A program made the translations under genes and the position numbers. The notes under the pieces were generated by a model. It did not search any database. It saw nothing but the letters and a program-made list of their open reading frames with translations, and was not told where the DNA came from. From Neckera pumila (lineage: Eukaryota > Streptophyta > Bryopsida > Hypnales > Neckeraceae): a stretch of DNA of 64,000 nt. Numbering within the stretch: the stretch's first letter is position 1; the number at the start of each line of letters is the position of its first letter. Of the stretch, positions 28,263-60,084 are shown piece after piece. The stretch spans positions 13,567,711 through 13,631,710 of the forward strand of contig OZ018413.1 in assembly GCA_963969595.1 (NCBI GenBank). The letters are read 5' to 3'.

Positions 28263-28271
28263 GGGTAGTGG

Positions 28272-28382
28272 GTGAGGGTTGCTAGTATGTGAGCCTAGGA
28301 GCTTGAGCCCAAGAGCCTAGGAGCCTAAAAGCCTAGCTAGTTTTACAAATTTGACCTATGACCGTGGACCTATATCCGTGAA
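28272..28382 (+). repeat. Left terminal region of the Mutator-like element
   Basis: It contains the terminal GCTAGTATGTGAGCCTAG, then several 'agcctag' repeats. Two tandem 14-mers follow, CCTATGACCGTGGA (28355-28368) and CCTATATCCGTGAA (28369-28382). These could be transposase-binding sites. Confidence 0.65.
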
Positions 28383-28659
28383 GATCTAACCAAGGATTTA
28401 GACATGGCTCTATATCTAGAGCGGGAGGTTTACAATACAAATCATAAAAATGATTCATAATTTGTACAGCTTTAGAAAAGACAAGGTATAAGTTTAATGA
28501 TCATATAAATGAAATAAATCCACCGAACACTAACCAAATGACAATAGTACCATAGTCCAATATATCATAAATTAAATCCAAAGCAAAACAAAGCCTCTGC
28601 CAATAAAAGGTGACGACAGTGTACAACAGACAAAATGAAATCCAACCAAGCAATTGAGA

Positions 28660-31600
28660 TATCAAGGTGAATCCTCAGAAGACTCCGAGCTACTCGAGGA
28701 GCCTATCATAGAATCACCATTTAACTTTGCTGCTTCTACATCAATAAAGTCTAAAACACGAGGATCCATGGTAATAAGCTCCTACCGTGAAGGCCTAGAA
28801 CCGCCTTGGATGTATGCATTTGCCATATTTGTTGCATACATTGGTAAATCAAAAGTCTTCTCTGGGCTTTGGAAGAATGCCGGGTTACAAAAGAAGGGTC
28901 GCGTTGTTATAAGGTTGGAACCTACAAATCTGATAAGCCACACATTTTGTATTAGAAAATAGTCAAGGACCAAACTTAAAGAATGAATGAAATACAAGAC
29001 TTACAAGGGTGACTTACTTACTAAAACGGGATTTTTTCTTCTTTGGCACAATGTCACGCAATTATTCATCTAGGTCATCAAAGGTCAATTCCACAACTTC
29101 TGTAGTTGCAGTAGGTTTTGGTGCAACACATTTCGGTGTAAGGCGGATCAATGGAGCTAGAAGTGCATGAAAGATTGCTTTGTCTTCTTCGAGGGCAACA
29201 ATGTGTCTTCCCATTGATTGGCATGCAAAAATCAAAGCCCCTGCCAATGAATTTTTATTAGAGAGTTTTAACACTGAACACATATGAAGGAAATTACAGT
29301 GCAACAAAATATAGTAGAACATAAATAAAAGTAATCACTGACTGGTCGCAGCAGTGGCATCCAAAACAAAGTCCCCAGGTATAGTGCTAGAATCGATCAA
29401 CATATGCATGAACATTTGATCTTTCTGTCGCCCCCCACGCCATGGAACCTTTCCATTCATCAATAGATCACCCTTCATTGTAAAATTATATAGAAACTCA
29501 TCACCACCGACATCAAAACATCGAGATTCAAGGTCTGGAATGTCTCGGAAGTTGAACTTTGACGGCGGGCAACCCTCCAAGTCCCAAATAAGAAGAGTGA
29601 CTCAAAACGTTTGGTCTGTAAGGATTTTGTAATCATTAAGTGTTAGAAGCAAATTAACCAAGAATTCAAGAATTACAACTTTTCAAAAGTACATCCTATA
29701 AGAAAAAATAATCATACCAATCTTGAAGAAGTAACCCTAGAAGATAAGTGGAGGCAATTTATCCCCCACCACTCCTATTGGATCTTCACTGCATTTGCTT
29801 GACAGAGCTCTAGAATGCTCTTCTTTGCTGAGGCACTGTGAGGATGTATAACAATGAATGCCCCATCATCATGAAGATGATTGTCCATCAAATCAAACAC
29901 AGATTCCAACCAACCCTCTGGTAGTCTGGTAACACGTTCCAAGTGGGTATTTCCGAATCTAGATGACTCACCCCAGGGACCGGCAACCCCTCCGGCATGT
30001 CCACAATGATAAGGTCAAGATCGGGATGCTTGTTGATCTAGCCTCGGAACAAACGAGTCTTCTTTGATGCATGCTGAAAAACAAAGTTTTATATCAATTC
30101 TTGAATAAGCCTTGACAATCAATTGAACTGAAAATTACAAAGAAAAATGAGGTTGAATGTTGAAGGACTCACTTTCCCAATGAATGCAACCATGTCGGTA
30201 TACTCTTGAGTCAATGGACTGTCATCGCTACCAAGTAACTTAGCCACCGATGAATTGAGTATTAACTCTTCTAAGCAAATCATATCATTATCCTCTAACT
30301 GAATCGGTAGAGGTCCATGAATAATCCTCTCTTCTGTGAGCAATATGTATGAAGATGGTCGTTTAGTACCCACTGTGGAGGTGACAACAACCTGAGAGCC
30401 GTCATCGAGCATTGACGATGCACCACCACCACCGTGACTCTCTACATTGGCAATTGATAGCTTGCCTTTCACTGCAACCTTCTCAATAGCCTTCAAAGCT
30501 GCATGTCCTTTTTTTTGGACATTTCTTTCAACTGCCTTTTCTACTTTCTCTTTCAAACATTATTCCATCTTCTTTTCAACTTCAACCGGCTTTGCAATGG
30601 CCTTGTCCTTTGCCTCGTCTTGCAAGCCTGCAAAGGCACTTACAACTGCGTCTACCACCCCAGGTTCTTCAATGGTTTGCCTTAGAAGAACCTCAGTGGT
30701 TGGTGTAAATGTTGGAACACATTCCAAATACCATCCGCATTCATTAAGATGCGCTGAGGGCCATGTCTTCAACTGTGCAGTGCTAAATATACAGTCATCA
30801 GACCATGGATCTAACCATGACCCCCCCAAAAGAGGAATATTGGATTTTACAATAGCTCTCTTAGGAAACAACTCCAACTTGAAATATCTGCTATAAAATT
30901 TGTTTTAAGTACATAAATACAAATTTAATAGGAAAGTGTAAAATAAATTGAAGAATGAATTAAAAAAAGAACACATCATTACCTGTAGACAATACGCTTT
31001 ACAATAAGAGATGAACCATTGAAATTCTTGAAAGAATCGGAGCGCTTGAAGTGTCCCTTCCTCAACAAATCACCATGAAAAGCACTGTCCCACACCTTCA
31101 TTCTCCAATTCTCCACATACTTAGGTATGGTCTCCGGCTCAAGTGCTAAGTTTATGTCCACAGGTATGTTATCTTTGTTCACAATGAGCTCAAAGGATTC
31201 TCAAGCACTCTCCTCAATCTGCACTAATAACCACAAAGAATTGAAATGACACTCTTGAATGAATTCAATAAGCAAATGTAACTTTAGTCAATGTTGAATC
31301 CAACAAATAGTAGCCATTTTATACACAGAGCAATAAAATAAAAAAGACAATGACCACATGCACTCACCCTTGCATATCACACAACTTTATGCAAGAAAGA
31401 CATCAATTGGTCTTCATTCACAGGTCTAGGTGGAAACCGACGAGCCTCCCTTGTTGGAGGGGAAGAATTCCACCACTTAAGCCAACAAACCTTGTAAATG
31501 GACTCAACATTGGAGTTTGCAAGAAGCTGAAGCTTGTCGAGCGTCAATTCCGGATCCGCATTCAAACTCCAATGCCTCCCAATCTAATGATTCAAAACAA

Positions 31601-33120
31601 ATGTTAGAGGTAAAATAATTCTGCCAAGATTATTAAATATGAAGAATATATTTTTCAGGATAATATAAATCTCACTTGTTATTCACCTCAGCAAGCCATT
31701 CGGAAGTGAGAGATGGATTTGCGATTGTCACCATTTTCGCAAGTTTTGAGTACATCTTGGTAGTTTTGTCTTTTGCACCTTTCTGCATTGCTCTTGCAAT
31801 ATCCTCTGCAATAATGTCCGCCTCAATAGTATTCTCATGATAAATGCGGACAGCAACATCTGCTGCAATTTCAATTTCATAGTGCACATTAAGTTGTTCA
31901 ATTAAAATACATGAACTCTTGTTTTCACAAAAAACAAATAAACAAGAAAACAAAACAAGTGGAGCTTGATGAATACTTAAATACATACCCTAAAAATAAA
32001 AGCTGTAAACACTTCCAATGGCATTGAGTACCAAGTATTTTTCACATTCTGCTGGCACTTTCGAAAATCTGATGCATTGAGGATTTCATTGAACTTGTCA
32101 ACTCCCAAACTTCCGTACTTCTGGATTTGGTATAAAGTATGTACCAAATTTGTTTTTTACATGGGAATCCTCTGTTTGTCTGACAAGCCAATAAGAATGT
32201 ATGTTAGATTGATACATATTAAAAAATGACCAACGATTGCAATTTGCAACACAAAGGAATAAATTCTCGCTTGTTAATGTCATACATGGATTGCATGACA
32301 GCCCCAATCCTGCCTTTTGTTTCCAAGACAATGTAGTCTACCGAAATGTGCCAATCTTCTTCTGTATGATGTTGCTTTGCAATATGATTCATCCAAGCTT
32401 TGTGACAGTGGTTATCGTCACAAATAAAGAATTTGGAATTCTTCAAATGTCGAAGCTCGCCCACCTTCTGCAAAGTAGCAAAAAAAATTTTGTTCTCTTC
32501 CTCCCATTTATCCCTCTATTTACTGGAATCTTGCTCGGACACTTCCATAGACTCATCAGCTTCATTGGTAGTGGACACGTAAAAAACGCAAGCACCTTCC
32601 CGATAGCCATGGACAAACTCTTGCTCTAATTTTGTTAGATCACATGCAAGAGTGGGCCTAACCATAGGCATGGGAACAAGCCGACACAATGGGATTCGGA
32701 GCCTTGACAAATGGTGGGGCTTCAAACGTAAACTATTGATGGTCCCACTGAATTAACCTTCTATTCTCAACGAATGTCATGCTCAACATTGTTGCAGCAT
32801 TGTCCTCATCTTCTTCCAAAGACTCTACATCTTCATCATCGCCTTTCATTTCCGGTTGTTCAGTCTTTGCACTACCTATGCTGCTTAGTTGATTTTGGCC
32901 TTGCAATTGAGACCCACTTGGTGTGCAAAGTTCCTACAAACAAAATCACTGTCACAAAGAGACATATATAAAAAAAAATGAAAATGAAAATTTGAGTTTC
33001 TCCTAATACAAATCAATAACTTTAAGAATGAGTCATCAAGGCTTACCGGCAAGCCTTGGCCATCGATTTCAGCAACAATTGGTACAATAAAACTCTGATC
33101 TTGAGTTCCAGTGCCCTACT
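28660..33120 (-). pseudogene. Decayed gene with a beta-class amino-methyltransferase-like C-terminus
   Basis: A chain of protein-like segments runs right to left. It includes an exon ending at a donor (33047); an acidic linker (32,933-32,750); a Cys/His-rich segment (about 32,480-32,290); unidentified charged segments (32,160-32,010, 31,930-31,690, 31,570-31,380, 31,180-30,980); a Trp-rich segment (30,880-30,690); and a Lys/Ala-rich helix (about 30,640-30,440). The C-terminal part looks like an N4/N6 amino-methyltransferase of motif order IV then I: 'LIIVDMPEG' (about 29,985-30,010), 'HDDGAFIVIHPH', 'QKDQMFMHMLI', 'GDFVLDATAA' (29,345-29,375), 'GRHIVALEED' and an acidic Ser-rich tail. In-frame stops at 30560-30562, 30038-30040, 29062-29064 and 28782-28784 and at least two frameshifts (about 32,130, 29,920) show decay. 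The methyltransferase reading is by motif only; the substrate is unknown. Confidence 0.6.
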
Positions 33121-34754
33121 CATACATACAAGTCAAGCATGTTATTACTAGTTGTTCATACAATGTCATATTGCCACTGTCACAACACAAATTAACCAAA
33201 GGTTAAAGTGAGATTTGCTAACCTCATTGATCAAATGGACAGTTTCCATGCCGTTGTGATCTGCATTTGTTGTAGAAATCTAATGACAAAATCTTGTGTT
33301 TAGTGACAGTCATGGATTCATGGTGGAAGAATTTAATACTCTTGCAAGAAGTTTAAGTATCCAAGTCCAATTACAATCAATAAAAATGAAATATTAATAA
33401 AATACAAAGTACTAGTCAAATAGATGGCACTCTTTTACCAATATTCTTAAAACTTGTTTTAGGGTTTGGTAGTTTAAAAAAAGAAGGGGCTACAATCTTT
33501 TGGTACCAAAAGACTTTGATAGGGCAAGACCTATAGCTCTATATTTAAATTGTCAAAGATTTCAGCAATGAGCAATTCATCATTCACTTGGCATTTGATC
33601 ATCACATACCTTTAATATGAACAATTGTAATATGTATTCTAGCATCATCTAATTGCAATATTTCTACTTCATTATAACTTTAAAATGGCCTTGAATGACT
33701 ATTTCAAAGACTTAAAACCATTACAACTGCTTGAGTGCAACCAATTAGAGGTGAGGAGATTTTTGAAGCAACTAATGAAAATTTAGACATTTTGTACTTC
33801 AAAGGTTTCCATTCAATGTGAACACACAAATTGATATTTTCAACTTTATCAATTTCTAAAATATTACGAGAGTGTCAAAAAATTTTGAAACCACTTGGGT
33901 GGCATATTTGATTTTCTTGAGTTTGCTAGTAACCTCATCAAATCTTGTGGTCATTTGACCTTTGAAGATAAAGTGTCTCTTCTAAGTTCCTAATCTCAAA
34001 CAAACTTTAATTCTGATGCATGAGGGACAAGCATCAAAACATCTTTTGGTAACAAAAGATAAAAACCTAGCCTGCTAAAGAACTCTCAAAGTTCTATATG
34101 TCCATGAAATTTAGTAGAAAAAGAGCAGCAATACCCATGTCCCATTGATCTTTTGGTACCAAAAGAGGAATAGACCTTTCTAATTTATGAACAAAATTCT
34201 AATTGCTCAATCTATGTTCATTCAATTAAAATTTTGCATCCAATTACTTGGTATAGAATGTGCATCTAGAATTCAATGTGGTTAATTATCAATATATTGT
34301 TCATTAGTTAATGATTTCCATGAAATCTGTATTGATGATGCTGGAGGTCTTTTGTTACCAAAAGACTTCCAACATCACCAATATAGAGCTAATTTTTTAG
34401 AACAGTAGTACTGGTTTCCTACAACAATAACAAGGTCGTCACTTGGCTACTCATACAACCAAGAGGATTTAATATAATGGAAGGACCCTCAAATAGCTTA
34501 GAGAAATGTAGCAAACTCGATCAATGAAAACAAAGGGTGCGAGAGCAAGCCAGTGAGGATTCCCCTCCTCTTTCACTATATTGATCCAATTACAAATGGA
34601 ATCAAGCTCTACTTGATTTCAACCTAATGCAACAAAGTGGAAATAACAAAACAAAACTCTAAGGCAACAATAACTTCCGGCATTCTCTAATCTTTGTAAA
34701 ACCAACACTCAAACAAACCAAATCAAACCAATTCTCAACAAACTAATTTTTCAA

Positions 34755-35448
34755 TGCCCATACTCTCAAAAGTTGCAACTGTGCAAACAACTATGAAAAG
34801 GTCTTTTGTTATCAAAAGAAGAATTTACACACATCTACTGCCGTTCAAAAAATGACAATATGCTAAGTTTAAAATCCGTGCATTCATAGTAATTCCAACA
34901 TGTATTAAACGGTGTTTCTTTCCAAAGCATGGAGTATTCATTGTTTACGTTTTTTGAGGGAGGATAAGCTAATTTGGACTTTGAAGGAGACATCCAAAAT
35001 GCTAAGATTGCACAGGTTCCATAGATTGCAGCAACTATGCTAGAAAAACCTAGAATATGACCTTATCAGGGAACCTAACATAGAACCTCATTGGATAGAA
35101 ATTCGCCACCATCGTGACAGTTTATTTGCAGAGCTGACCTTTTAGGGTTACGATAAAGTTGCAATGGTGGCATGGCATGGTGCCCATACTCTCAAAAGTT
35201 ACAACGGTACAAACAACTACAATAAGATCTTTCGATATCAAAAGGAGAATTGACACACCTCTACGGTGCTTTAAGAAAAGGCAAAATGCTAAGTTGGATG
35301 CACAGCACGTCTCCCTATCAATCATGAGTGATTCACGATGAACATACGGCACTACTCATCAGGGAGGATTTGGAAACCTAATGATCTCAACAATGGGCTA
35401 ATTTGGACTCTAAAAGAGACATCCAAAATGCTAAGATTACACAGGTTG
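34755..35448 (+). repeat. Diverged tandem duplication, period about 426-430 bp
   Basis: 'tgcccatactctcaaaagtt' at 34755 recurs at 35181. 'catccaaaatgctaagatt' near 34991 recurs near 35420. Each copy carries one of the palindromes. A third, partial relative of the palindrome flank lies at about 36145-36245. Confidence 0.7.
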
Positions 35449-35962
35449 CACACAAGAAAGCTCACCTTTTCTAAGCTAAATACATAGTAGGGATTGTTGG
35501 AGTGTGAGTATTTTGTTTTGCAAGAGGCGATTCTAAGAAACAATTTGATAACTGTACACAGGATAGGATTTCTAGGACGAGGTTATTGGGCTTGGAAGTG
35601 CACAGGGTTCAACATAGAAGCAATAGTGAAACCTTCCACTAGAAGCTGAGAGCTCTGACAATCCTAGTAAAACCTTGATGGCAAGAACCAAATTCGCTAC
35701 TCATGCTTAGTTCAAAAATCACCCAGGTCAAAATTACAACACTAATGGATAGGGTTCAATCTAAGATCGGAGAATCCAATTCTAGCAGGGGCCTAAAATT
35801 CTAAGATATTGATTATGAGAATGCGCACCACTTCAACATCAAATTTTGAACTCTTGGGCTATCTATTACGTCATTTACCTTGAGCTATGCCTAGTTGGTT
35901 GCCCGAAGGCCCCATGCCAGGTCTTATACTGGGTCTCATACCAAGCTAATTTTGAGTAAATA

Positions 35963-36102
35963 TAGTGCGGAGATAGTAAGTAGGCTATCCTGTGTTTTCA
36001 AAAGGTGCTTTCAAAAGGTGCTTACATTAACGATGATGAGGAGATAAGTTAAGATAGTGCGGAGATAGTGAGTAGGCTATCCTATGTTTTCAAAAGGTGC
36101 TT
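35963..36102 (+). repeat. Tandem repeat, period 92 bp
   Basis: 'tagtgcggagatagt' followed by 'agtaggctatcct' starts at 35963 and 36055. Each copy ends with 'tgttttcaaaaggtgctt'. Further fragments extend to about 36160. Confidence 0.75.
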
Positions 36103-36265
36103 ATAATAGTGATAGTGCAGAGATAGTGCGGAGAGATGCCCAAGATTTTCAAAAGGTGCAATAGTGCAAATAGTCTTTCGGTATTGAAAGGAGACTTTAC
36201 ACACTTCTATTGTGCTCTAAAAAAAGACAAAATGATAATTGGATTTACTACTCGATTCCACGTCG

Positions 36266-36346
36266 GACTTGAAGTTGTACTGGGATGCTTTGGACTTGAA
36301 GTTGCACTAGGCTGCTCCAGACTTGAAGTTGCACCTAAAGCACTCC
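36266..36346 (+). repeat. Three tandem copies of a 27-bp unit
   Basis: 'gacttgaagttg' starts at 36266, 36293 and 36320. The overlapping 88-codon frame at 36136-36402 owes its regularity to this repeat and is not called a gene. Confidence 0.8.
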
Positions 36347-38102
36347 TTGTTGCCTTTGCACAAGGAGCAGCCATTTGTGCTGCATTGACGAGACATTTCT
36401 AAATGGGTATGCACCCTTTGCGCAACATTCCCTCCTTCAACATCCTGCACAATTTGTCTTCAAGATTAGGAGAATGAATATTTGAGAAAAATGAAGGACT
36501 ACAACTTCTTCAAAAATCAAGTTGTACAATCTACTAAGTGCCACTATTAGAGTTTGGTGCAATATTAATAGGGTTCATATTGTATATGCTGATTCAACAC
36601 AAAAAAGATTCAAATCAAGCAAGTAGTGTATTTCAGATTAAGCAACAACAAAAATCTAAGTTCTTTCAGAGCAAGCAAACAACCTAAACCTAACTTGTTC
36701 CAGATCAAGCAAGACACATAAACCTAATTTGTTTCAAGCAAGCAACATAAACCTTGTTTTAGATCAAGCAAGCAAGTCGGACTTTGCTGATTTGTATTAG
36801 CAACAACGAAAGAGGTATGGGAAAAAAATTGAACGCAACCCTCAAACTGCCCAGTCCATCTTTGGACAGCCCCGCAGGTTTGCCGCACAATGTGCTGGCG
36901 CCCCGACTCTATTTGAAATGAGCAACTGTTTGGAATTTAAGCATTTGCGTCCATTTAATTCATTACATCTTGAGTATGTGATACACACTTACTCATAATA
37001 GTGTACAACATTTTTAGAAGAGACACTTTTTAAGTTTCACTCCCGTCAAGGTCAAATGAAGAATTTTTGGAATTCTTTACCTAAAACAACGTGAAGTCAA
37101 GAGAAATGCACTCCAAGTGGCTTTGTAATTTGTTGGCACTCTAATAATATTCTACAAATTTTGAAAGTTGAAAACATAGGATAGCCTACTCACCTTGAAC
37201 GGACACCCTTAAATTATAATTTGTCTAAACTTTAATTGGTTGCTTCAAAATAATCATCTCCCACCGTTTGCACTTGAACAGTTGTGGTAGTTCTACCACT
37301 TTAGAGTGTCATTTAAGGCTATGCTTAAGGTGTTGGCAAACAACAAGTGTTGCAATTAGACGTTACTACCTCAATGTGGACAAGCAAGTTTCTAAAAATT
37401 GTAAAGAATCTCACTCACCTACTTCATTAGGTTCAAGAAGCAACATCAACAATTATTTGATAATGAACCTTAAATCCATTTCTCTATGTCAAGTATTTTT
37501 GAAGCTGAACATAAAATAAAAATCAAGGGTTAAGATAATTGAATTCAGAGACTTGAATATGATTGAAGATTCAACTAACATCTCAAACAACCAAAGCAAG
37601 ATGGAAATGAGTGACTTACTTATTCAAATGAAACTACCAATGAGGAATGGATGAGTGGAAGTATTTTAAACCATTCAAGTTTGTTATAGACAAATGCACC
37701 ACTATAGAGTTAGTTTGAATTTGAAATTATGGCTCCTCTATAACTATCAATGCCATTTTGTCATGAATGTGCCGCCTAGATTTTGCTAAAAAATACTCAT
37801 GGGGATTAGCGCACCAAATGTCATTCAAAAAATTAGCTACTCAATAATGGTCCGATCTAATCTTGGATTCAGACTTGGTGCCGTCGCTGAGCATTTGCCA
37901 CCATTAATAATAAATGCAAATGTACAATGTCATCTTCATCTACAAGTATCCTTTAGATTATTTACATTTTGTTCATTTTTTATTGGAAATCACAACGGTT
38001 CAAAATCAAATACTGTCATGTACATAAGAGTGTGAGACATTCTTCTGCTATTAGTAATATTTTTTGTAGCAAATTGACTGCAATGATTTGATTTAGAAGA
38101 GA

Positions 38103-41100
38103 ATGGCATCAATTAGAGCTGATGGTTACGAGGTTCTTTTGGTATTGCCTGCAAATGAATTGAGATTAGCAATAATTTCTAGTCATATGCTAGATGTTAG
38201 GTTCAAATTTGTTGAGTTGTCAATATATGTCAAAGAAGAGGTACTTTCAGATTCTAGTCAGTTACAGGAATTCATCCTATTGCAGAAGTTTCTAGAAGAA
38301 GATGGACACTTTTGGACGCTCCCTCCAGATCGTTTCAGAGCTTTTGGACTCTTGCCTTCCCTCATGGCAACGTCCACGCAGATTCTAAGTTGTCATTCTA
38401 CTACTTCTACAGTAGATATGTCATATGGCACCCCCACTTATTTAGAGGGTCCAAGTTCGGCAGGTGAACATGTACATGTTACACCTCCCATTTTGCACTC
38501 CATTAAACAAGAGAGGTTAGAGCCCATTATAGAACTGTCTAGTAGGCCAGACAATGATTCTCCTCATAAGCCTATGATACATTCTTTTGGAAAGCTTGCA
38601 ACAACAACAGTTCCTTCAATTCTTCCTATTTTTCAAGATACACCTAGTCTTCTTCAGTGCTTGTGTCGTCTAGGTGATATTCAAGGGGCTAGAAATGAGC
38701 TTGCTAGCCTAAACTTTGACAAAATTCCTTTCTATCCCGTGCAATGTTTACCACCATCTTACAATAGAAATGTTGTTTTCCGATTGCCACCACTACCAAG
38801 TGCTTCATCTAGTAAAGCATCACGTATTATGCTTGATGCGATGGACAAACGTTAGGATGGGAACATCTGGTGTAGGACTTTCACCACTAACATCCATAAC
38901 TCGGACAACTTGATTTTTAGGAAGTCACATTGCGTTGGACAATTAGTAGGTACGAACTTGAATTGTGACTTTTTGACTAGGTCATCTTCAAGAAATGAAA
39001 CAGAGTGGTCTGGATGTTTTATGGATTCTGTCAAAATTGGTGGTGATCCTCCAGTAGGTAGTACCATCCTTTGTAGGATATGCAAAAGTCCTCCTACTTG
39101 TGTAAATGTTTGTCAAGCTCGGATTTACTATGTTATGAGCAAGGACGGAACAACTCGAAGGTGCATACATCTAGGAACACATTTTCATGAGGTTGCTCTT
39201 GGTACCTGTCGCAAATCATTGGACACAATATCGACACTCATTGGGGCGGAGGTATCAAAGACTCCAATAGCAACAAACTCAGCAATTGCTATAGCAGCTA
39301 GCAAGGAGTTCCTCGAGAGCTATTTGATTCACAAAGGACCTGGAACTAAAGTGATGTTGGAGGGAAAAGCACTTGAGGAGGTCATGGACAAGTTTCAAAT
39401 ATTGAGTTCTCCAAATGTGAAGAACATCATTTCTTCATTCCAGTATATTGGTACTGGTGGGATCATCGACTGAATTATGAATTTGAAGCGGGACTCTACC
39501 ATTGAATACATACACAACACTGTATTTCCAGGTCAAGGAAAGGAGAAGGTTTATCTTTTTAAGATGCTCGCAGTGGGGCCTGGGAGTAGAGTGGATCTAT
39601 TCCGCCGGATGCAACCGGGTGGTGATCTTGAGAATGCATGGTTGATGTTCGATCATGTGAAGCGCGTGAAGGATTGGACAACAATGGCTTGTCATGTCTA
39701 CGACTCAGGGTACTCTAAGGTTCAAACGATTGCCGTGTGTGACATGCAATTGGAGGATAAGAAGGTTTAGTGTATTATGTGGAGATGTTTGATTGCTCTC
39801 ATGAAGAAACATGGAGTGGAGAATCCAAATTTCAAGGGGTTTATGGTGGACAGTGCGATGGCAAATTGAAATGCTGTAAGGATTGTACTTAAATCAGGCG
39901 ACCCCAAGAACCCCATGGAGAATTGCAAATGTACATGTCTACCACACTAGACTAGTTCACTCCACAAGCATACTCAAAAATTTATAAAGCCGGACTTGCA
40001 ACACCAACATGATCGACTTTGCAAGCAATACAAAGATGCCAAGACAAGGGAAGAAGCAGAGACAAAGTACTTTGCAATTCGAGCATGGTGGTTATCAGCT
40101 GGAGCGGCTATAGAAGATGGGATCCGAGAATTGGATCTTTGGTTGGGTTTTTGGCACTTCAGATATTGACAGTAGGGTGGCTTTTGGCAAATGGTGAGTC
40201 TTTCTTATCATATCACAAATTTTGTTTGTCATAATTTTTGAATTCTGAAATTTGAATTGTACATGATCTAACTACTAGAATTGACACATACAGGGAATGA
40301 CACTTGAAGAAAAGGCAGATATGCCATCATGCAATCTGTCTGAGACAGTTCACAACAAATGGTTACAACGGTCAGGATATCGCGGAAACGATTTGTACGT
40401 GGCTACATGTGATGATAGCATCCATGCCTTTATGCAGATGACAAATTATCAAGCATATCTAAATGGATTAGCATCTGAGACTGGGCCTTCAAAACATGAG
40501 TTGAAATTGAGAGTTGCTCGTCAAAGTGGAGATCCAAAGAAGTTGATGGCGGCTCTAAACTAATTGGAAGGGGTTCATGAAATGGCCACTTGTGTCCCAC
40601 ACTTGGAGGGAGAAGAGATGTTTGGAAGTTTGAAGAAGAAGTTGGATCTTCCCATCGGCTCAGATGGTGATTCACATTGACCAGATAAGGTTAATTTTTC
40701 ACAACCTTGAGTTCAAATTAGCTCTAAATCTACTTGTTCTCCAGCATTAGAGCCAACTTCAATCACTTCCAATGTTGGAGAAGTTCTTCATGTCACCTCG
40801 GTAAGGGAGTCAGATTGTGATGTGTCTCAATGGCACATTGCAAGAATCTTCCACAACTCTGTTGCAAAGTGCCATGCCCAGCATCGTGGAACCAAGAAAA
40901 AATGCCTTGCTCGCATTATAAATCGACATTCCAACTCCAACGGCACTCCAGCTCCAACCTACCGCAGGCGTAAGAAAGAGTATAACTCCACTAAGGTGAT
41001 TGTCTCTGACTTTTGGTTTTGTTCTGATGACATAGGACAATGTGGGATGGGATCTCAACGCTCATGGATTTTAGACTAGTCCAAAGTTCCAGAAGTTTGG

Positions 41101-41691
41101 CCAATCCTCACAGGCACAAATCTAACAAGGCAAGAGACGCTTCTTCTTCAGGATGCGGGTTTTTGTCTACAAGCACGTGAGGCTATGTCTCCATGTTGTC
41201 TATTCACCATGTCGAGAGTTTTTGAGCCTACTACATTTGAGCATAGAAGCCTTGCAAATCCAGATCAATATCCAACAACTCAGAAGGGAAAGAATATTTG
41301 AAGGATCTCAAATGCACCAACAATTGAACATCAAAACAAGTGGGAGAGCACTCGAAATGTGAAGGGAAGCATCATTAGTGCTACCATGCTACCATTTCTA
41401 GGGCTTGGAGCTATAATATGTCTGGAAATTGGAACTGATAGTTCTTCAAATATTTACCACATTTTTATTAGCATGTACCCAGAATGTTCTTGCCCTAGTT
41501 TTGTTGACTTGGCCATGGCTACAATTGGTGGTCGACCGCAGTATGTGAATTGCAAACACCTATATTATCTTTTTAGGTATTTCTGTAAGATGAATTCCGA
41601 GGAAGACCAGTTCATTCATGCCCCAAGCTTCAGCTTCAATGAAGTGAAGTTGCTCCTTACTAGGGTTGGAATTCTCAAGTTGGCTAACTAG
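38103..41691 (+). pseudogene. Decayed MULE-like transposase with SWIM zinc finger
   Basis: One frame stays in register from 38103 to a donor at 40194, broken only by single stop codons (38853, 39471, 39768, 39867, 39948, 40167, 40173). A 100-bp GT-AG intron (40194-40293) leads to the next exon, with stops at 40561 and 40678; the rest runs 40,822-41,691. A 'CRICKSPP' zinc-type motif (about 39,077) precedes the catalytic part. Putative DDE residues are Asp in 'LMFDHVKR' (39651-39653) and Asp in 'FMVDSAMAN' (39849-39851); the Glu is not certain. A SWIM finger follows, with CSC at 41485-41493 and CKH at 41551-41559. This is the order of Mutator/MULE transposases. Most stops sit where Trp, Gln or Arg is expected. 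It belongs to the large element and faces away from the methyltransferase-like gene. Confidence 0.75.
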
Positions 41692-42018
41692 AGAGGTCCA
41701 TAGTAATTCTGGCAGTACTGTAGTTGTTACTAGCATTCTTCTTAGAATATGTTTTCATATCTATATTTGCTTCCAAAGTTTGTTTGGAGGTTAATTAGTG
41801 ATATAAAACATATTGTTGAGAAATGGTTTATGAAGGCCGAAAATGGCAAGTTTTTGTAATTTTGCAAGGCTTATTAAATGCAAAGTTCTGAAATTACTAA
41901 CTAAGTTTCTGAAAGGAAATAAATTGATAGAATGTCTAGTGAAGTAATTTTTGGATTGATTGAATAATTCACTTGAAGACTTTGATGAAATTTTTGGGGT
42001 TCAGTGGACTACTTTATC

Positions 42019-42232
42019 TTCCATGGTTATAGGGTACATATATTTTCCACGGTCATAGGTAACAAAATTTCATAAAATTCAATTTTTTTTCTAAAAAATT
42101 CCACTTATTCTCAAAATCTTAAAGGATAATCTTTACATTTCCATATTTTTTTTGTTTCCAAGCTCTAGGCTCAACAAATCTAGGTTCAAGGCTCGTAGGC
42201 TTGCATTTCTAGGCTCACACACTAGCATCATT
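42019..42232 (-). repeat. Right terminal region of the Mutator-like element
   Basis: It carries inverted counterparts of the left-end motifs: TTCCATGGTTATAGG (42019-42033), TCCACGGTCATAGG (42046-42059) and the terminal CTAGGCTCACACACTAGC (about 42,210-42,226). Confidence 0.65.
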
Positions 42233-42241
42233 GGGTAGTGG

Positions 42242-42929: not shown

Positions 42930-43141
42930 CTAATCACTTTAAGAACTTGTTATCTTATTACATTTTCCTGCTGAGTTGGAATTTTTGGATCTGAATGTAA
43001 TTTCAATACTTGATCATCAATGATAAATAATAGGTCTAATCACTTTAAGAACTTGTTATCTTATTACATTTTCCTGCTGAGTTGGAATTTTTGGATCTGA
43101 ATGTAATTTCAATATTTGATCATCAATGATAAATAATAGGT
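42930..43141 (+). repeat. Perfect tandem duplication of 106 bp
   Basis: 'ctaatcactttaagaacttg' begins at 42930 and again at 43036. The two copies differ at about one base (a C/T in 'caatayttgatc'), so the duplication is recent. Confidence 0.92.
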
Positions 43142-48378: not shown

Positions 48379-51300
48379 ATGGAGACCACGCAGCAGGATG
48401 GGGAGTCGTCGCCGCGCTCCCTGTCGCCAACATCCTCTGCGCGCTTGACAATGTCAGTCCCGTTGCCGATGCCTGAGCTCATGTCAGGACCGTTGTTGGC
48501 CAAGGTTGACTCTGTGGCGATGTCAGGGCCGTTGGTGGCGAACTCAGGCTCTGTGGCGATGTCGGGGCCGCTGGCGTTCCGGACGGAGGCGGAGGTGCAG
48601 CGCGACTATGACGAGGAGCTGAAAGCCGCCTTGAGGATCCGGTTTAGTGTGGATCTTGCCTTCGCCGCCAAGCGGCAGTTGGGCTTCCTGCGCTCGATTG
48701 ACAGCTTGCCTTGCTTGCACAAAGGCCCCGCCGTTGTGCGCGCCATCCGCAGGTCTCTCACTGCTCACACACACACACACACACACACACTCAAAATTTC
48801 TACACTGCCGGCAATGTGTGGATTTCGATTCTCTAGAGTAACGGATACTAATTCCTTGTAAGCCGCGAACTATGTCCTTCGTTCAATGTGGCTTGTGGTT
48901 GATCAAGCATTTCAGATCTGAGAAGCTTGAAATTTTAAGCATTGTCGCAACGATAGAAGAAAACCTTGCAGATTTTCTTCCCAGCAATTTGAGCCTAAAA
49001 TCTGCAAGGTTTTCTTCACGTGCCTATATTTTGATCCCAGCAGATTCTGATCCCTGAATTTTATTCCGCTCTGATTTCTGGGGAGGGTGGAAATCAGGAT
49101 TGTAAGGAATGGCGTACTAGCACACATTGGGTAGTGAGTTTCAAATAAGAATGCTTCGAAATTTGTGGAATACTGGTGGAAACGGGCCATGACTGGTTTG
49201 CTGAAGAGTGTGACGTGAATTTCGAATTTCCTCTGATACCATAGATTGACTCATAGGTGTGGTTTCTTTGCCAGGTATCAAAAGTTTTGGATGCCATTGG
49301 TAGCTGATTCTCTCAAGTTCGATGCGTTGCTGAATGTCGATGCCAAGGGGAAAAGTCTATTGCCTCCCATGGACGTGCAGTGGATATGGCACTGCCACCG
49401 ACTAAATCCGGTAAATCTTGCCAGCTTCTTCAAAAATTCACACCCTAATTCTCCACCTTCTCACACAAGTCTATTGCAGCATCAAAATTGGTGTTTCTTT
49501 TGAGAATCTGGGAGTTCAGGGCATAGCATTCATCCTCCATAGGGCCTTCAATGTGCTACACTCAAGAATCCAAATCCACCATTCTGGTTCTATCAAAATA
49601 TGAAGTTTGTCATCTCGTCATCCTGTCTTTAGCACATTGCCCATAGGAACTATAGGGAAGCAAAATAAGGGTTGATAAAGCGCGAGATTAGATTATCTAG
49701 GAGTAGTCATGTCAGAATCCGATACTGATTCCAGAAGCTAACATTGACTGTTATGGAAAATTTCTGTTGTAATAAGCTCTAATTTCGGACATTTAAGGAG
49801 CCGGTCTTGTAGGTTGGCTATCGGCAATACTGCATCTCGAAATTCGGCCGAGTGATCGACTGCCCCTTGTTCCCAGACAAAGCCAGCGAGAGCTTCGCCC
49901 AAGAGCGTTGCCGTCGCCTCTGGTCCATCGTCTACCAGAAGGAGCCTTACGACATTATGTCCACCTTCTACAAGTTCCCTGGCAACCCCACAGCTCAAGT
50001 CGTCCCTGTTGACGACATCGACGGTCTCGATGAGCTTCTCTCCGCCGTGACTCGCCAAACCAGCTTCTACTACTACGTCTCCCAGCCTTACATGTGGGAA
50101 GAACCTATTCTCCAAGCCTCCGTCGAACGCTACAAGTGCTTCCTCCACCTCTTGTCCAAGTCCAAAGGGAAAACTTTCTGCATCCCCACGTTCGACATCG
50201 ACTTGATTCGGCACGCACATCAGCTGTTGCCCGGGGCGTACGCGAAGGACACGAAGGCGTTGCTTGGGAGTGTGGCGGAGTTATCCGTGGAACGAGGGCC
50301 TGGGAGTAAGTTGGGGATGGAGGGGTTTGAACAGACGGCGGGGTTGTGGGAGAGCACGTTTGGGATCTGTTATGAGAAAGCGGGGTCGATGTATCGGAAT
50401 ACGAAGCCGGTGAATGTGCCGCCGCCGCCCGTGTCGGAGATGAAGAGTAGTCTCATGTTGGAAAAGCCGCCGGCGTTCTTGCCGTGGGATCATCGGTTGC
50501 CGGATCATAATCCCACGAAGTACCCGGTTCTCACTCCGCGGCACGTCTTGCAGGTCGGTTACCGTTTCCTCGTCAGAATTTGTTGCTGAAATTTCGTATG
50601 CTCTGTTTTGAAGGGCTTTTGCACCAAGAATTCAAGGTACAGAATTGCCCACTTGGATTCACCAGCTTGTGTCACATGTAATTCATCATGTAATTCAATT
50701 GAACATGTAATCAATTAGGGTTGAACCTCATATCACCCGATCATTGCTTGGTGGAAAATAGATAAAAGTTAACAGAAAGAAATTTGGTACATGACGTACT
50801 CAAAAATGTTACTGAAAAGAAAATGAGGTCCAATTTGGGCTTCTTGTTCCGAAAGGGTTTAAGGTTATGAGCTCCATAGCTCATGCTCTGGACTAGGTCA
50901 GGTAATCTTGTTTGTGGTTATCGAAAAGAATTATTCAGTTTGTACCTACTTAGATGCTAAGGAGACACGAATTTGTAAATTAATCATGATAATGGTGACA
51001 TTAATTGCAATCACCGGACAAAATGCCAATAAAAATAGCATTTTGAATTGCAACCAAATTAATTTACTCCCTTCTGAAACTCATCATTGATACATTTTCT
51101 GCAGAACTAGAATGTACAATCTAAATGTGATTGTCCTATATTCAGCCTTTGATTTGAATATGCTAATAGAGCATGAAGTTTTAGACTTTCAAAATTCAGT
51201 ATTATACTTTAACTGCGACTAAGTTTGTGCACATTATCTCATTGGTTACATACCTCCTAAGACTAGTGAGTAATTTTCTTTTCTTAATTTCATTGGTTGC

Positions 51301-54300
51301 ATATTTTCTCAGACCTCAGAGTAACCTTGTGCATTTAATCTCGTCAGTATCATATTAAATTCTAAAACAGATTCCGTAGAGGGTTGTAAATGGGTTAGCA
51401 TCATGGATTCCAGTCTCCCTCCTCTCAACCATTGAGACTACAAAATCCTGCATCAATTGACAAAATGCTGCGGTCAGACATGACTCACACAATGTAGTAC
51501 CTCTGCATCTCCAGGTATGCATTTTGATCAAGTGCGGAGCCAGCATGATCCCCATCGGTCGCGAGAACGCGGACCTCTTCATCCGCCTGCGCACCTTAGA
51601 CGCCTCCACCCCCTTGAAGCTGGAGACGCCGGTGGTCCCGTTCACGCAAGACCCGCAATGGCAGAAGCTGTGGGTGCTGCAGTGCGAGGTGAAGACCAAA
51701 GGCGTGCAGCTGGAGTTGCGCTACCACGTCGAGGGCTGCATGAAGTCCTTCCAGAAGACGAAGCGCGTGGGGAGCGGCACCAAGCTCGCGTGGGCGGACC
51801 TCGCCAAAGCGCCCGGGCTCTCGCATGATATCGTCGTCCCGCTCCGGGACAAGCGGTTCAATTCGGTGGGGCGGAGGCAACCTCTGCAGCTCAAGCTGGA
51901 CGTATCTGTCACGCCGCCGGTGCAGGTACGCTTGGAACTTGTGATCTTGTAATTCTTTTGTTGTGGTGCTTGAATTCTCTGTATAAATTCGTCAATTTCG
52001 TTAAGTTGGCGCGATTCTGGGCACAGATTTAGAGTTCTTAAAATTAGCACAATTCAACGCACGATTCAATGCGTCCAGAATCAACGCCTATGTATCAAAA
52101 TTTGTTAGATTGGCGTTCATTTCTGCACAAAGCTCGCATTCTGCGCACGTTGGGCTCATTTTTGTTAGATTGTCGTTAATTATTAGAGCTTTCTGCACCG
52201 ACATTTAACTTAAGGATTGGTAGAGATTTACCGGCGGGAATGTGTTAAAGTCGTGGATTTTTGCCAATTCGACGCTATGTATTCAATATGTGGGAGATCT
52301 GATATTTCAAGTCTAGTGTATTTATAACCTACATACATAGCCTATTGCTACTCGTTATGGAGCGTTTGTGGTTAACTCTCATTCGCATCTTTCTGAACGA
52401 ATTCAACTTATAGTGCATCGGCCTACATTTGTTGCTAGATTTTCGTCATGGACTATTGTAGATTTCAGTATTGCACGCAGAGTGCGACGACTTGTAGTGG
52501 GCGCATCTCACTCAATGTAACAAGCTCCCACTACAAGCTGTAGCACACCACATGACGTTTCTGCATCCTGTAAACTACCAAAGTGGTGGAATCCTGTCAA
52601 TGTTGTTTCTTACTCTAAACCATGCTCCCTCATTCCAACTGCATTCTTCCAGTCGCACCTCGTACAAGAATCTCATGGATCCATGTGGTAATAAAAGCGA
52701 CAGTGACAGGAGAGGGTGATTACTCTCAACCAGTAGAATTTGTATAAATAAATCTTAAGCTACAGATTCAAATCTTTCGAACCCCAAGCTCTGAATCATT
52801 CCCCACCCCAGGCCTCCTACTTGCTGAAATCCGTCCCGGATTACATTAAAATCAACGAATTCAACATGTAGTGTTGCGATGTCTCTGCTCGGTCGAGGCC
52901 TTGTTCATTACCAAATGTGTTGGTAGTTACTGTGCTTGCTTGCAACATGCTACGGCTTGTGGTGGGCAGATGTCACTTCGATAGCTTGGTGTGACAAGCA
53001 CCCAGCAGAATCCGCAGCGAATGGCATGTTTTCTGCTATGCAATACCCAACTCATTATTATCTAATGACGATCACTCTTGAACCTTAGAACTCATCTCTA
53101 CAAATCTTACGCTACAGATGCACAATCTTCTTCTAACCCACGTACTGAAATCTTTCAATCCCAGGCCTCCTACTTGCTGAAATCCGTGCCTGACCGCGTC
53201 ACCGACGACACGGGCGCCATGCTCTCCCCCACCCTGGCACGCCGCCGCTCCGCCCCGCAGTCCGGCCGCTGGATCACCCGCACCGTATTCTCCCACACCC
53301 ACCACGAGTCTTTCGTCATCCGCATCCGCGCAGCAAAAGGCGCCTGGCGCAAGAGCGGCGAGCGTCCCATCGGAGTCGACTGGAACGAGCGCATCATCAC
53401 CATCCACGAGGGAGGGTGGAGCTACCTCTCTTCCAACGTCGGGGTGGCCCCGGAGAAAATCGTCGCCACGGCCTCCCCACTCGCACATGAACTCGAGGAG
53501 TATAAGCTCAGTTGGGCGCTTTCGACGGGGGAGACGCTGGTGATTTCGAGACAACTGAGGGACGTACATTGGGAAAGAAACCTGGAGTTTACGCTGAAGA
53601 CGTCGGGGAGAGGGGCGGGGTTGGCGAGGCTGGTGAATGGGAGGAAGCAGCAGTATGAAGTGGAGGGGGCGTCGCCGCAAGAGGAAGAAGGCTTTGTCAC
53701 ATTGATAAGGTATGTACAGTATGTATGTTTGGGTGTCAGAACTTAGCTTGCTTTACTCACTCCTTTTATGACTTTGGATTTCGGGCCTGGCGGCTTAACC
53801 CTGGAAGGACGAGACCTATCACCGAGGTAGAAGCTTGCCAAAAAGATCCAATTTACGGACCAATAGGTGCATTCTCTACAGTAATCTTGAAAGTCATCGT
53901 TCAACCATTTTTTGGCTGTTGTGGTGTTACAAGATTAAGATAGTGGTGCCTTGAACTCACAGGTACCTAAAATGAAGTCCTACTTTTGGTCTAATAGCAA
54001 GCCCAATCTGCATGTGAAATCATAGGTTTTTCTTGTTTAGAACATGAAATAGGTGATCAAAGTGGCTATTCAAGGGTGTGACTATTCTTGCATCACTCTC
54101 TTGTTGCTTCATGGTTTCAAATGTGTTGTTTCGTACCGAGTCTTTTACAATTTGGGACCTTTACCATGCCGCTTTAGAGGATTTATAACATAGTCTCCAC
54201 GTAGCCGAAAATCCAGATTTTAACTTTCATAACATCTTTTCCTACAATTTGCTCCTCTGGTTGAACCCAATTTTGATGATATGGTCTCAAGGAAGACACT

Positions 54301-57459: not shown

Positions 57460-60084
57460 TTATGAGAGAGGACACCCTTTCACGTCCCTCCACTTGAGGT
57501 AGATCAAGCCGCCTTGGTAGTGAACATACGCTGCCCACACAACCAGAACATGAAACAACTGATGGCTGTTGCCGATAATGTCGAAGGCTCCCGGTTTCCA
57601 ACGCTCCGGGATACGAGTGGCGTACACTAAGCCCCCCAGGGCGTAGATGATGAACATCTGCGCGTCGTTGTAGAGCGCTTCGTGAGCCTGGACCTCGTCT
57701 GGGAACATGATCACTTTGTGCACGCAGGGGACTATTCCTGAGATTGCCATGGTGGAGAACATCGCTGCACGGACCGATCGATATTCCGCGGTCTGAAACA
57801 CGGGGACCAACGAGAGTAACACACAGGCGATCCCCATCGTGGTGATAATGCTCAGGTACATTTTGCAGAGGGCCGGGTTACACATGAAGCTGTAATAGAC
57901 CTGAATTATTTAACAAACACGGCGCAAGTCAGAATTTTCTCACAGCTTACACCTGGAGCGAGATAAACCCTAAGACCCTAAAATCCTATCACGTATTGAG
58001 TGAGACCTGGAACTTGTTTCTTCCAATCAATACTTGGTTGGCGTTCAATTAGCAAGTTCGGTGTAAGCTTGAATTGGCTATATTGGTCGAATGCCACTCA
58101 TGTTTGAATGGTAATGGGATTGCCTTCTTTCCGTTCAATAGTGGCCTACAACTTCCCTGCGTTTGAATAATTGCATAAAGAAATTCATACATGTGATGAG
58201 AATTTGATTTTGGTCCTCTAGTTCCTGCAGTACCTGTAGTGAGCTCTCCAGTGAGCTCTATTGAGGGGTCTCCTAATGTAAGCACAATCCTACACTGATT
58301 GGTTAAAATACACTACAAGAAAATGAACCACGTATTAGTAGATTTCCGTTGGTTTCGACTACTCGATTTGGACACAATTAACAGAAATCACGAGAATCAG
58401 TTAATTGTGCCCAAATCAAGTGGTCTAAACCATCTGCAATTTGTTAACATAGGGTACATTTTCTTCTAGTGATGCTTAAAGTGATGGGAAAAATACCCAT
58501 AAATCTTATACTCAGAACTATACCGTCAGTGCGTGAGTTTCAGAAACATCAGGTGTGGCATGACTGAGGGGTACTTATAAACCATAGGGGGCGTTTAGAG
58601 TGTACATACAGGAGGATAGAACGATGCTACAGTGAGAGCAGCAATCCCCATGTAATCGACCCTCATCAACGTGTAGAAAGTTTTAGCACAACGGCAACTC
58701 AGTAGATGGCATGTTGTGCTTGCCAACATGCAAAACATGGCACCTCCTAAGAACACGAAGAAAGGCCAACGTGTGATCGGTTTCTGCACATCCTCAACAA
58801 CAGCAAGAGAACAATTAGAAGCTGAACCCTTTGGCAATTGGATTGACCTCCCTAGAGCCCAAATACACAATGCCCTCCATCTACATTTCACTCAACCCTC
58901 TCTAATGAGAAATGAGCTTCTACATGCGCACGGACATGATGTGTTCACAGGTGGTAGTTGTCCAATTAAATGCGTACACGACATGACAGTATCTGACAGT
59001 TTCTCTGGATGTACAAGGCATGTGCAATTAAAGAATGTCGTTAGAAAGGGTTGAGGGAATTCACTTCTGTAGCTCATCGAACGTGTCAGACTTAACTAGC
59101 TATACAACCAAAAGCCACACCATTTATTAGCTCTGGACCTAAGGGAAGGAGGGCTTGCATTGACAAAAGCTTCGTCGACAATGAGTGTGCATGTTGCTTT
59201 TTTATAGGTGAACCAATACTACAATTTTTTTATGCATTTGTGTTCCTTAAGGTCCCCATCGAGAATCATTTCAGTGATTAGTCACTCAAGCACCAAGTGG
59301 CTAGTCAACAAGTGGCCAACAGTCCAGCACAAGACCCAAAGCTCAGTAAATGGAGTTCACCAATAAGAACACTGATTCATGATGTTCCGAGGTTAATATT
59401 ACCATAGGCGGAAATAGTGTAACACAATTATAATGTCACAAACGGTGTAGCAAGCATCCCACCTGAATACATCGAGTGCCGTCGAACGTGCCAGGCACAC
59501 AACTGGAAAGAGCTTCCGGCAGCTGCAGATACGAAGGCAGCGACTCCATAATATACCCAGATTGCCATCTTTGAAGAGCAGCCGAATAGGTCGGCAAATG
59601 CGTCGCTGTGTAGATTGTCAATCCCAGAAACAAAATGAACCCAACCAAATGCCTGCCAAAACCACCACCACATTCTCAGCATCGCCCTGAAGAACACAAA
59701 CACAAACACCAGTTTGAAACAGAAGCAGAAACAACTGAGACTCATCTTCCAAATTAGGTCACACGGGAATGCAAAAGAATAAAAAACTTACGACCAAATG
59801 TTAAACGTTTCGTTGTGCATGGAAAACATGGAATAGAAGGCATGCTTGAACTGCCAATCCGCTCGGTAATGGCGCACGATGTAGCTGTTGTCTTGGAGAT
59901 ACTCGGGCAACGCGGAATACTCCACCAGCTGGTGCTTCACATTGCACCACAACTCCATTGCCTTCTCCCTGTTGCTCAAATTCAGCTCGACACTCGGGAA
60001 GCTCGTCGTTCTCTCCATCTCCTCTTGTTCCTTTACGTTGCTTCTACGACGGACTCCCACCTCATCATCCTGAAATGCTCCCAT
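57460..60084 (-). CDS. Heptahelical transmembrane protein (HHP, PAQR/AdipoR-like)
   Basis: Predicted 365-residue membrane protein from four exons on the minus strand: 60084-59792, 59652-59463, 58783-58610 and 57900-57460, all GT-AG with matching phases. It aligns by eye with plant HHP proteins (Arabidopsis HHP1 is similar in length). An N-terminal cytosolic part ends in 'LPEYLQDNSYI' and 'YRADW'. 'HNETFNIWSH' (90-99) then leads into the first helix. 'RWPFFVFLGGAMFC' follows in exon 3, and 'RIPERWKPGAFD' near the end. The three histidines expected to bind zinc in this superfamily are present: His187 in 'TTCH', and His332 and His336 in 'SHQLFH'. Arabidopsis HHPs are linked to sugar, abscisic-acid and stress signalling. 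The ATG at 60084 is the first in frame and is preceded by AGA. Intron 3 carries a small CACTA MITE. Confidence 0.9.
58311..58471. mobile_element. CACTA-type MITE in HHP intron 3
   Basis: 161 bp starting CACTACAAGAAAATG and ending CATTTTCTTCTAGTG. The 14-15 bp ends are inverted repeats with one mismatch. Flanking triplets are ATA and ATG, so the 3-bp duplication is imperfect. The interior also pairs ('gacacaattaac' with 'gttaattgtgcc'). Confidence 0.8.

Follow-up and report, generated by a model that had tools for sequence, protein, structure and literature searches.

The interval 28,272–42,232 in a 64,000-nucleotide stretch of Neckera pumila contig OZ018413.1 (the window, whose first letter is position 1) is a decayed Mutator-class transposable element of about 14 kb. 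It carries two divergent genes about 4.8 kb apart, and both are broken. The plus-strand gene encodes a transposase. The multi-exon minus-strand gene (approximately 28,640–33,260) probably encodes a ParB-like domain, a linker and a domain resembling the beta-class amino-methyltransferases. An array of an 18-bp palindrome lies between the two genes and is newly described here. We consider it fairly probable that the interval is the remnant of an IS256-like, Mutator-class transposon, whose transposase was accompanied in the divergent gene by a ParB-like/amino-methyltransferase accessory protein acting on its own element.

The element is bounded by an exact 9-bp direct repeat, GGGTAGTGG, at 28,263–28,271 and 42,233–42,241, which represents the target-site duplication. 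Both copies were read and rechecked, and an exact 9-mer abutting within ±3 bases was found for 12 of 20,000 random position pairs. Inside the repeat, the terminal inverted repeats form 39-nt arms at 28,280–28,318 (plus strand, with the core TGCTAGTATGTGAGCCTAGG) and 42,189–42,227 (minus strand), which are 77% complementary. The first-pass annotation, made from the sequence alone, had claimed related inverted ends with a 9-bp direct repeat just outside them, and both features are confirmed. The duplication falls within the 8–11 bp range of Mutator-like elements (MULEs), and together with the inverted ends it fits a MULE. The TGCTAG core lies 8 bases inward of the left repeat copy and 5 bases inward of the right copy, so the exact ends of the element are uncertain by a few bases. 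Scans of the window for Rfam families and tRNAs gave no matches.

The transposase gene has two exons on the plus strand. Exon 1 (38,103–40,210) encodes an N-terminal domain, a zinc/GCM-like domain and a DDE core, recognised from homologues, a profile and the fold of a relative (P0016), and its 703 codons are interrupted by 7 in-frame stops. Exon 2 (40,288–41,691) is disrupted and matches the open 476-aa second exon of contig L001. A SWIM-type motif, C-x-C-x19-C-x-H, can be read from the residues at 41,485–41,559 (plus strand) without a Pfam match, and the CxC...CxH arrangement is found in L001 too. The transposase family is large (287 homologues). The conserved Asp positions are present in the alignment of 67 family members, in which the third acidic residue of the DDE core has no assignment. 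The second Asp is followed by C-x2-H, with C624 in 65/67 and H627 in 67/67 members. Both the C-x2-H and the SWIM-type motifs are informative for MULE transposases. The core is an RNase H transposase core of the IS256/Mutator type, and the best Foldseek match of the P0016 model was the ISCth4 transposase. These results support a Mutator-class element with an IS256-like transposase on the basis of the fold, the zinc/SWIM layout and the 9-bp repeat.

No relative was found in the viral contigs searched, and the genome contigs gave one match for the transposase, L001. Positions 1–4101 of L001 hold a two-exon copy of the transposase with open frames, filed under a cyanobacterial metagenome-assembled genome. 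This copy in a cyanobacterial bin suggests that L001 is a misbinned eukaryotic contig.

The front of the minus-strand gene had been overlooked in the first-pass annotation, which covered the 3′ part. It contains an exon of the DGNHR family (32,270–32,743, minus strand, read through one stop), which matched the family profile with 254.8 bits (E = 1.1e-77) when the window was excluded from the profile. The family has 21 homologues from several sources. The fixed positions of the pattern F-F-x-C-D-G-N-H-R-x2-A-W-M-N-x-I are invariant or nearly invariant in the family and degenerate in this copy. The domain is probably ParB-like, according to profile matches that are weak and mixed. The PHROG family 'ParB-like partition protein' weakly matched 6 of the 21 members (best E = 0.03), and DGQHR (E = 0.0045) and DndB (E = 0.026) matched 1 of 22 members each. 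A structure model of low confidence (pLDDT 45.8) shows the order helix-strand-(insert)-strand-helix-strand, which fits the ParB/Srx layout. The exon had no significant sequence match in phages and plasmids and no relative in genome contigs.

The 3′ half of the gene shows a real but partial similarity to methyltransferases at the level of sequence. The profile matches come from the motif-I exon (29,335–29,601, minus strand; GDFVLDATAAT), to which the last methyltransferase exon (approximately 29,062–29,241, minus strand; GALIFACQSMGRHIVALEEDKAIF) was joined by a presumed splice. The joined exons matched Pfam N6_N4_Mtase (PF01555) with E = 3.1e-4 (21.2 bits, under the Pfam cut-off of 26.7 bits), three PHROG methyltransferase families with E = 3.4e-4, 0.0017 and 0.031, NCBIfam CcrM with E = 0.0089, and DpnA structures with E = 0.031. 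The Pfam profile is one of those by which the first-pass annotation had proposed to check its call. When phages were searched by tblastn, 163 records were obtained at E up to 10. Among the best 20 of these, which include duplicate records, 17 were annotated, and 17/17 were named methylase or methyltransferase. The similarity is to amino-methyltransferases, and it spans about 50–61 residues with motifs X and I only. The stretch QK...PGD-VLD...G-R-I-E-F aligns with the DpnA/CcrM/YhdJ-type beta-class enzymes, whereas the GSG loop and the DPPY motif of these enzymes are lost here. The claimed opposite-strand gene ending in a prokaryote-style, beta-class amino-methyltransferase-like domain is borne out as to its similarity, but over this partial length. 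A piece with DLIIVDMPEG (29,941–30,080, minus strand) stands at the place of motif IV (DPPY-like), outside every profile match. The gene carries stops and frame changes. A Lysozyme_like match (E = 0.04–0.09) was dismissed as chance.

The palindrome array lies at 33,496–34,819, between the genes and upstream of the ParB-like gene. Its unit, TCTTTTGGTACCAAAAGA, is a perfect palindrome, with copies at 33,496, 34,042, 34,149, 34,348 and 34,802 (0–2 mismatches) and weaker, degenerate copies at 35,228 and 36,174. The five copies compare with 0.10 expected and with 0/100 shuffles, for a pattern picked post hoc. A de novo test for palindrome families within 1.5 kb, which is independent of the picked pattern, found 6 members in the array region. 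The best family had 1 member in each of 40 window shuffles, and 3 and 1 members in the left and right flanks, respectively. The flanks of the first four copies differ, so the palindrome itself is what is kept there. The fourth copy sits within a 62-bp imperfect palindrome, and the fifth copy and the two weak copies are embedded in longer direct repeats. The array is a candidate cluster of binding sites for the ParB-like protein. An internal inverted repeat spans 33,640–37,368, with arms at 33,640–33,898 and 37,113–37,368 (70% over 260 columns), and might be a nested insertion. Four of the five good palindrome copies lie within it and one lies outside.

Together, these features suggest how the accessory protein could have worked. 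It would combine a probable ParB-like DNA-binding/nicking domain with an amino-methyltransferase domain of the beta-class N4/N6 type. Most likely, the protein of intact relatives attached to the DNA of its own element at the 18-bp palindrome array. The bound protein may methylate the element, or, if the methyltransferase fold is dead, may act purely as a sequence-specific binder. By analogy with VANC on VANDAL elements, the element would then stay active or its transposition would be assisted.

VANDAL elements are Mutator-class transposons. VANDAL/VANC are described as anti-silencing MULEs of Arabidopsis, and VANC21 is reported to bind a motif of 9 bases that is repeated in a single orientation (PMC5735166, PMC10398659). 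The arrayed motifs lie in noncoding DNA of VANDAL21, and their binding goes with local methylation loss (PMC5735166). The element here resembles them in its Mutator class, in carrying a further protein and in having a short motif arrayed in noncoding DNA. It differs from the VANC21 case, as that is described, in its 18-bp palindrome and its methyltransferase-like protein. A close parallel is Sola1-1_Ec32 of Ectocarpus (21.5 kb), in which a gene opposite the transposase encodes a 1104-aa protein with ParB-like and N4/N6 DNA-methyltransferase domains. That report cites similar proteins of green and red algae and proposes that the protein binds and modifies its own transposon (PMC12477816). The present element would likewise be a large DNA transposon with an accessory gene, probably of this domain content, opposite the transposase. 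Sola1-1_Ec32, however, has a Sola-1 transposase, whereas the transposase here is Mutator/IS256-like, a 9-bp repeat flanks the element and the genome is plant-like, and the accessory proteins are likened here by their descriptions. The bacterial ParB-methylase Bce_0392 joins a ParB domain to an adenine methylase, and its ParB part reportedly nicks DNA; phage and plasmid ParB and methylase proteins are also discussed (PMC5512222). Proteins of the Bce_0392 type are prokaryotic, whereas the ParB-like exon here is without a significant phage or plasmid match. The first-pass annotation had held such a cargo to be undescribed. The general idea has in fact been reported in algae (PMC12477816), but no land-plant or MULE case of a ParB-methyltransferase gene was among the matches listed in literature searches, which covered titles and abstract openings and left subscription papers mostly uncovered.

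Several results weigh against the favoured explanation. The inverted ends alone only modestly beat chance (the local score of 36 was matched by 2/392 random window segment pairs). The opposite-strand layout of the two genes, which probably belong to one element, was observed in this single copy, and no second copy of the element was seen. The Pfam MULE/SWIM models matched 0/30 transposase family members, 0 of the L001 exons and 0 for the exon 1 consensus, and the transposase profile had no match to PDB sequences at E up to 10. The MULE/SWIM transposase of the first-pass annotation is thus carried by homologues, fold, residues, zinc/SWIM layout and the 9-bp repeat, but not by these models. For the DGNHR domain, Pfam ParB matched 0/22 members, while the unrelated DUF5531 attained E = 0.0047. 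The DGNHR consensus gave no ParB match in Pfam or NCBIfam, hhalign of the family against N15 SopB gave a probability of 0.2%, the family profile found nothing under E = 0.9 among PDB sequences, and the low-confidence model found no fold match. For the methyltransferase half, the hhalign profile comparison with three phage methyltransferases (93.8% probability, E = 1.8e-7; 40 shuffles peak at 4.2%) is not independent, because the three proteins came from tblastn matches to the same stretch. No homologues of this half were found in two protein searches with length limits, which shorter exon pieces could escape. The first search was scored on the 7,995 candidates with the most words in common, at lengths of 0.55–1.75 × 573 aa, and the second covered lengths of 0.55–1.75 × 172 aa, with 21/21 matches in the ParB-like part. 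Finally, DATAAT at motif I and DMPE at the place of motif IV are both unlike active enzymes; neither the D/S-PP-Y/F/W motif IV nor the GSG loop of motif I is found in this broken copy, which would therefore not be active.

These degenerate motifs bear on the rival that deserves the most weight, in which the methyltransferase fold is dead throughout the family. The protein would then bind DNA sequence-specifically, as a repressor, transposition cofactor or anti-silencer. The palindrome array, which suggests binding, agrees with it. However, this copy is a pseudogene in which the DGNHR motif is degenerate too when compared with its relatives, so the same decay may have struck the methyltransferase motifs. 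We therefore regard a family-wide dead fold as possible but doubtful. It is rather unlikely, in our view, that the methyltransferase-like gene is part of a different transposon, with the MULE or the 33,640–37,368 segment inserted beside it. Such nested or adjacent elements would account for the internal inverted repeat and would suit both the unremarkable outer ends and the small number of matches of the ParB-like exon relative to the transposase (21 versus 287, from queries and length limits that differ). Yet both genes lie between the outer ends and inside the exact 9-bp repeat, and the algal transposon is reported with the same opposite-strand two-gene layout (PMC12477816). Inspection by eye showed no direct repeat at the internal arms, so this reading is kept as a rival only.

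MULEs often capture genes, and the minus-strand gene apparently has introns, as would an ordinary host gene captured by a Pack-MULE. Its length and multi-exon structure, and the 21 relatives from several sources of its first conserved exon, argue against such a capture. Pack-MULEs are mentioned in PMC12477816, where the similar proteins are reported as algal transposon genes. We consider this origin very unlikely. The favoured explanation, an accessory protein acting on its own transposon, also has a stronger form, in which a plant Mutator-class transposon has gained a ParB-methyltransferase that binds a cluster of parS-like palindromes in its DNA and places N6-methyladenine or N4-methylcytosine there. 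The element would thereby mark itself against 5-methylcytosine silencing, convergently with VANC. This stronger form appears unlikely. Methylation by the accessory protein and its anti-silencing role would both belong to intact relatives; self-modification or anti-silencing is a hypothesis, and the present copy is a pseudogene whose methyltransferase motifs have degenerated.

Eight open frames were scanned in the surroundings of the element. Those at 49.8–57.9 kb contain pieces of a GRDP-like gene (49,813–53,746; GRDP-like E = 9.4e-34, GRDP_C E = 2.5e-27) and a HlyIII-family membrane protein (57,460–57,909; E = 3.5e-32). GRDP is typical of plants, and these domain matches would fit the nuclear genome of a plant. 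The flanks of the element also hold a dispersed, AT-rich repeat of about 0.9–1 kb, with about 60–88% identity between pieces, at 2.6–3.5, 14.0–14.9, 16.7–17.7, 43.6–44.5 and 61.7–62.7 kb, and inverted near 16.1–16.6 and 25.2–26.1 kb. A tandem 106-bp unit, in two copies matching at 99%, lies at 42,930–43,141, about 0.7 kb beyond the right end of the element.

Because genes with ParB-like and N4/N6-methyltransferase domains have been reported in an algal transposon, the kind is already known, and the present element would place it with another transposase superfamily and in a plant-like genome. If this is true, it suggests that the same bacterial-type module has been recruited repeatedly by different transposases. 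The palindrome array offers a concrete candidate target, at which binding and base modification are directly testable. A methylating protein of this kind, if real, would provide a natural transposon-encoded source to study in the controversy about N6-methyladenine in the DNA of eukaryotes, and if the self-marking reading is true, a bacterial-type DNA mark in plants would become directly testable.
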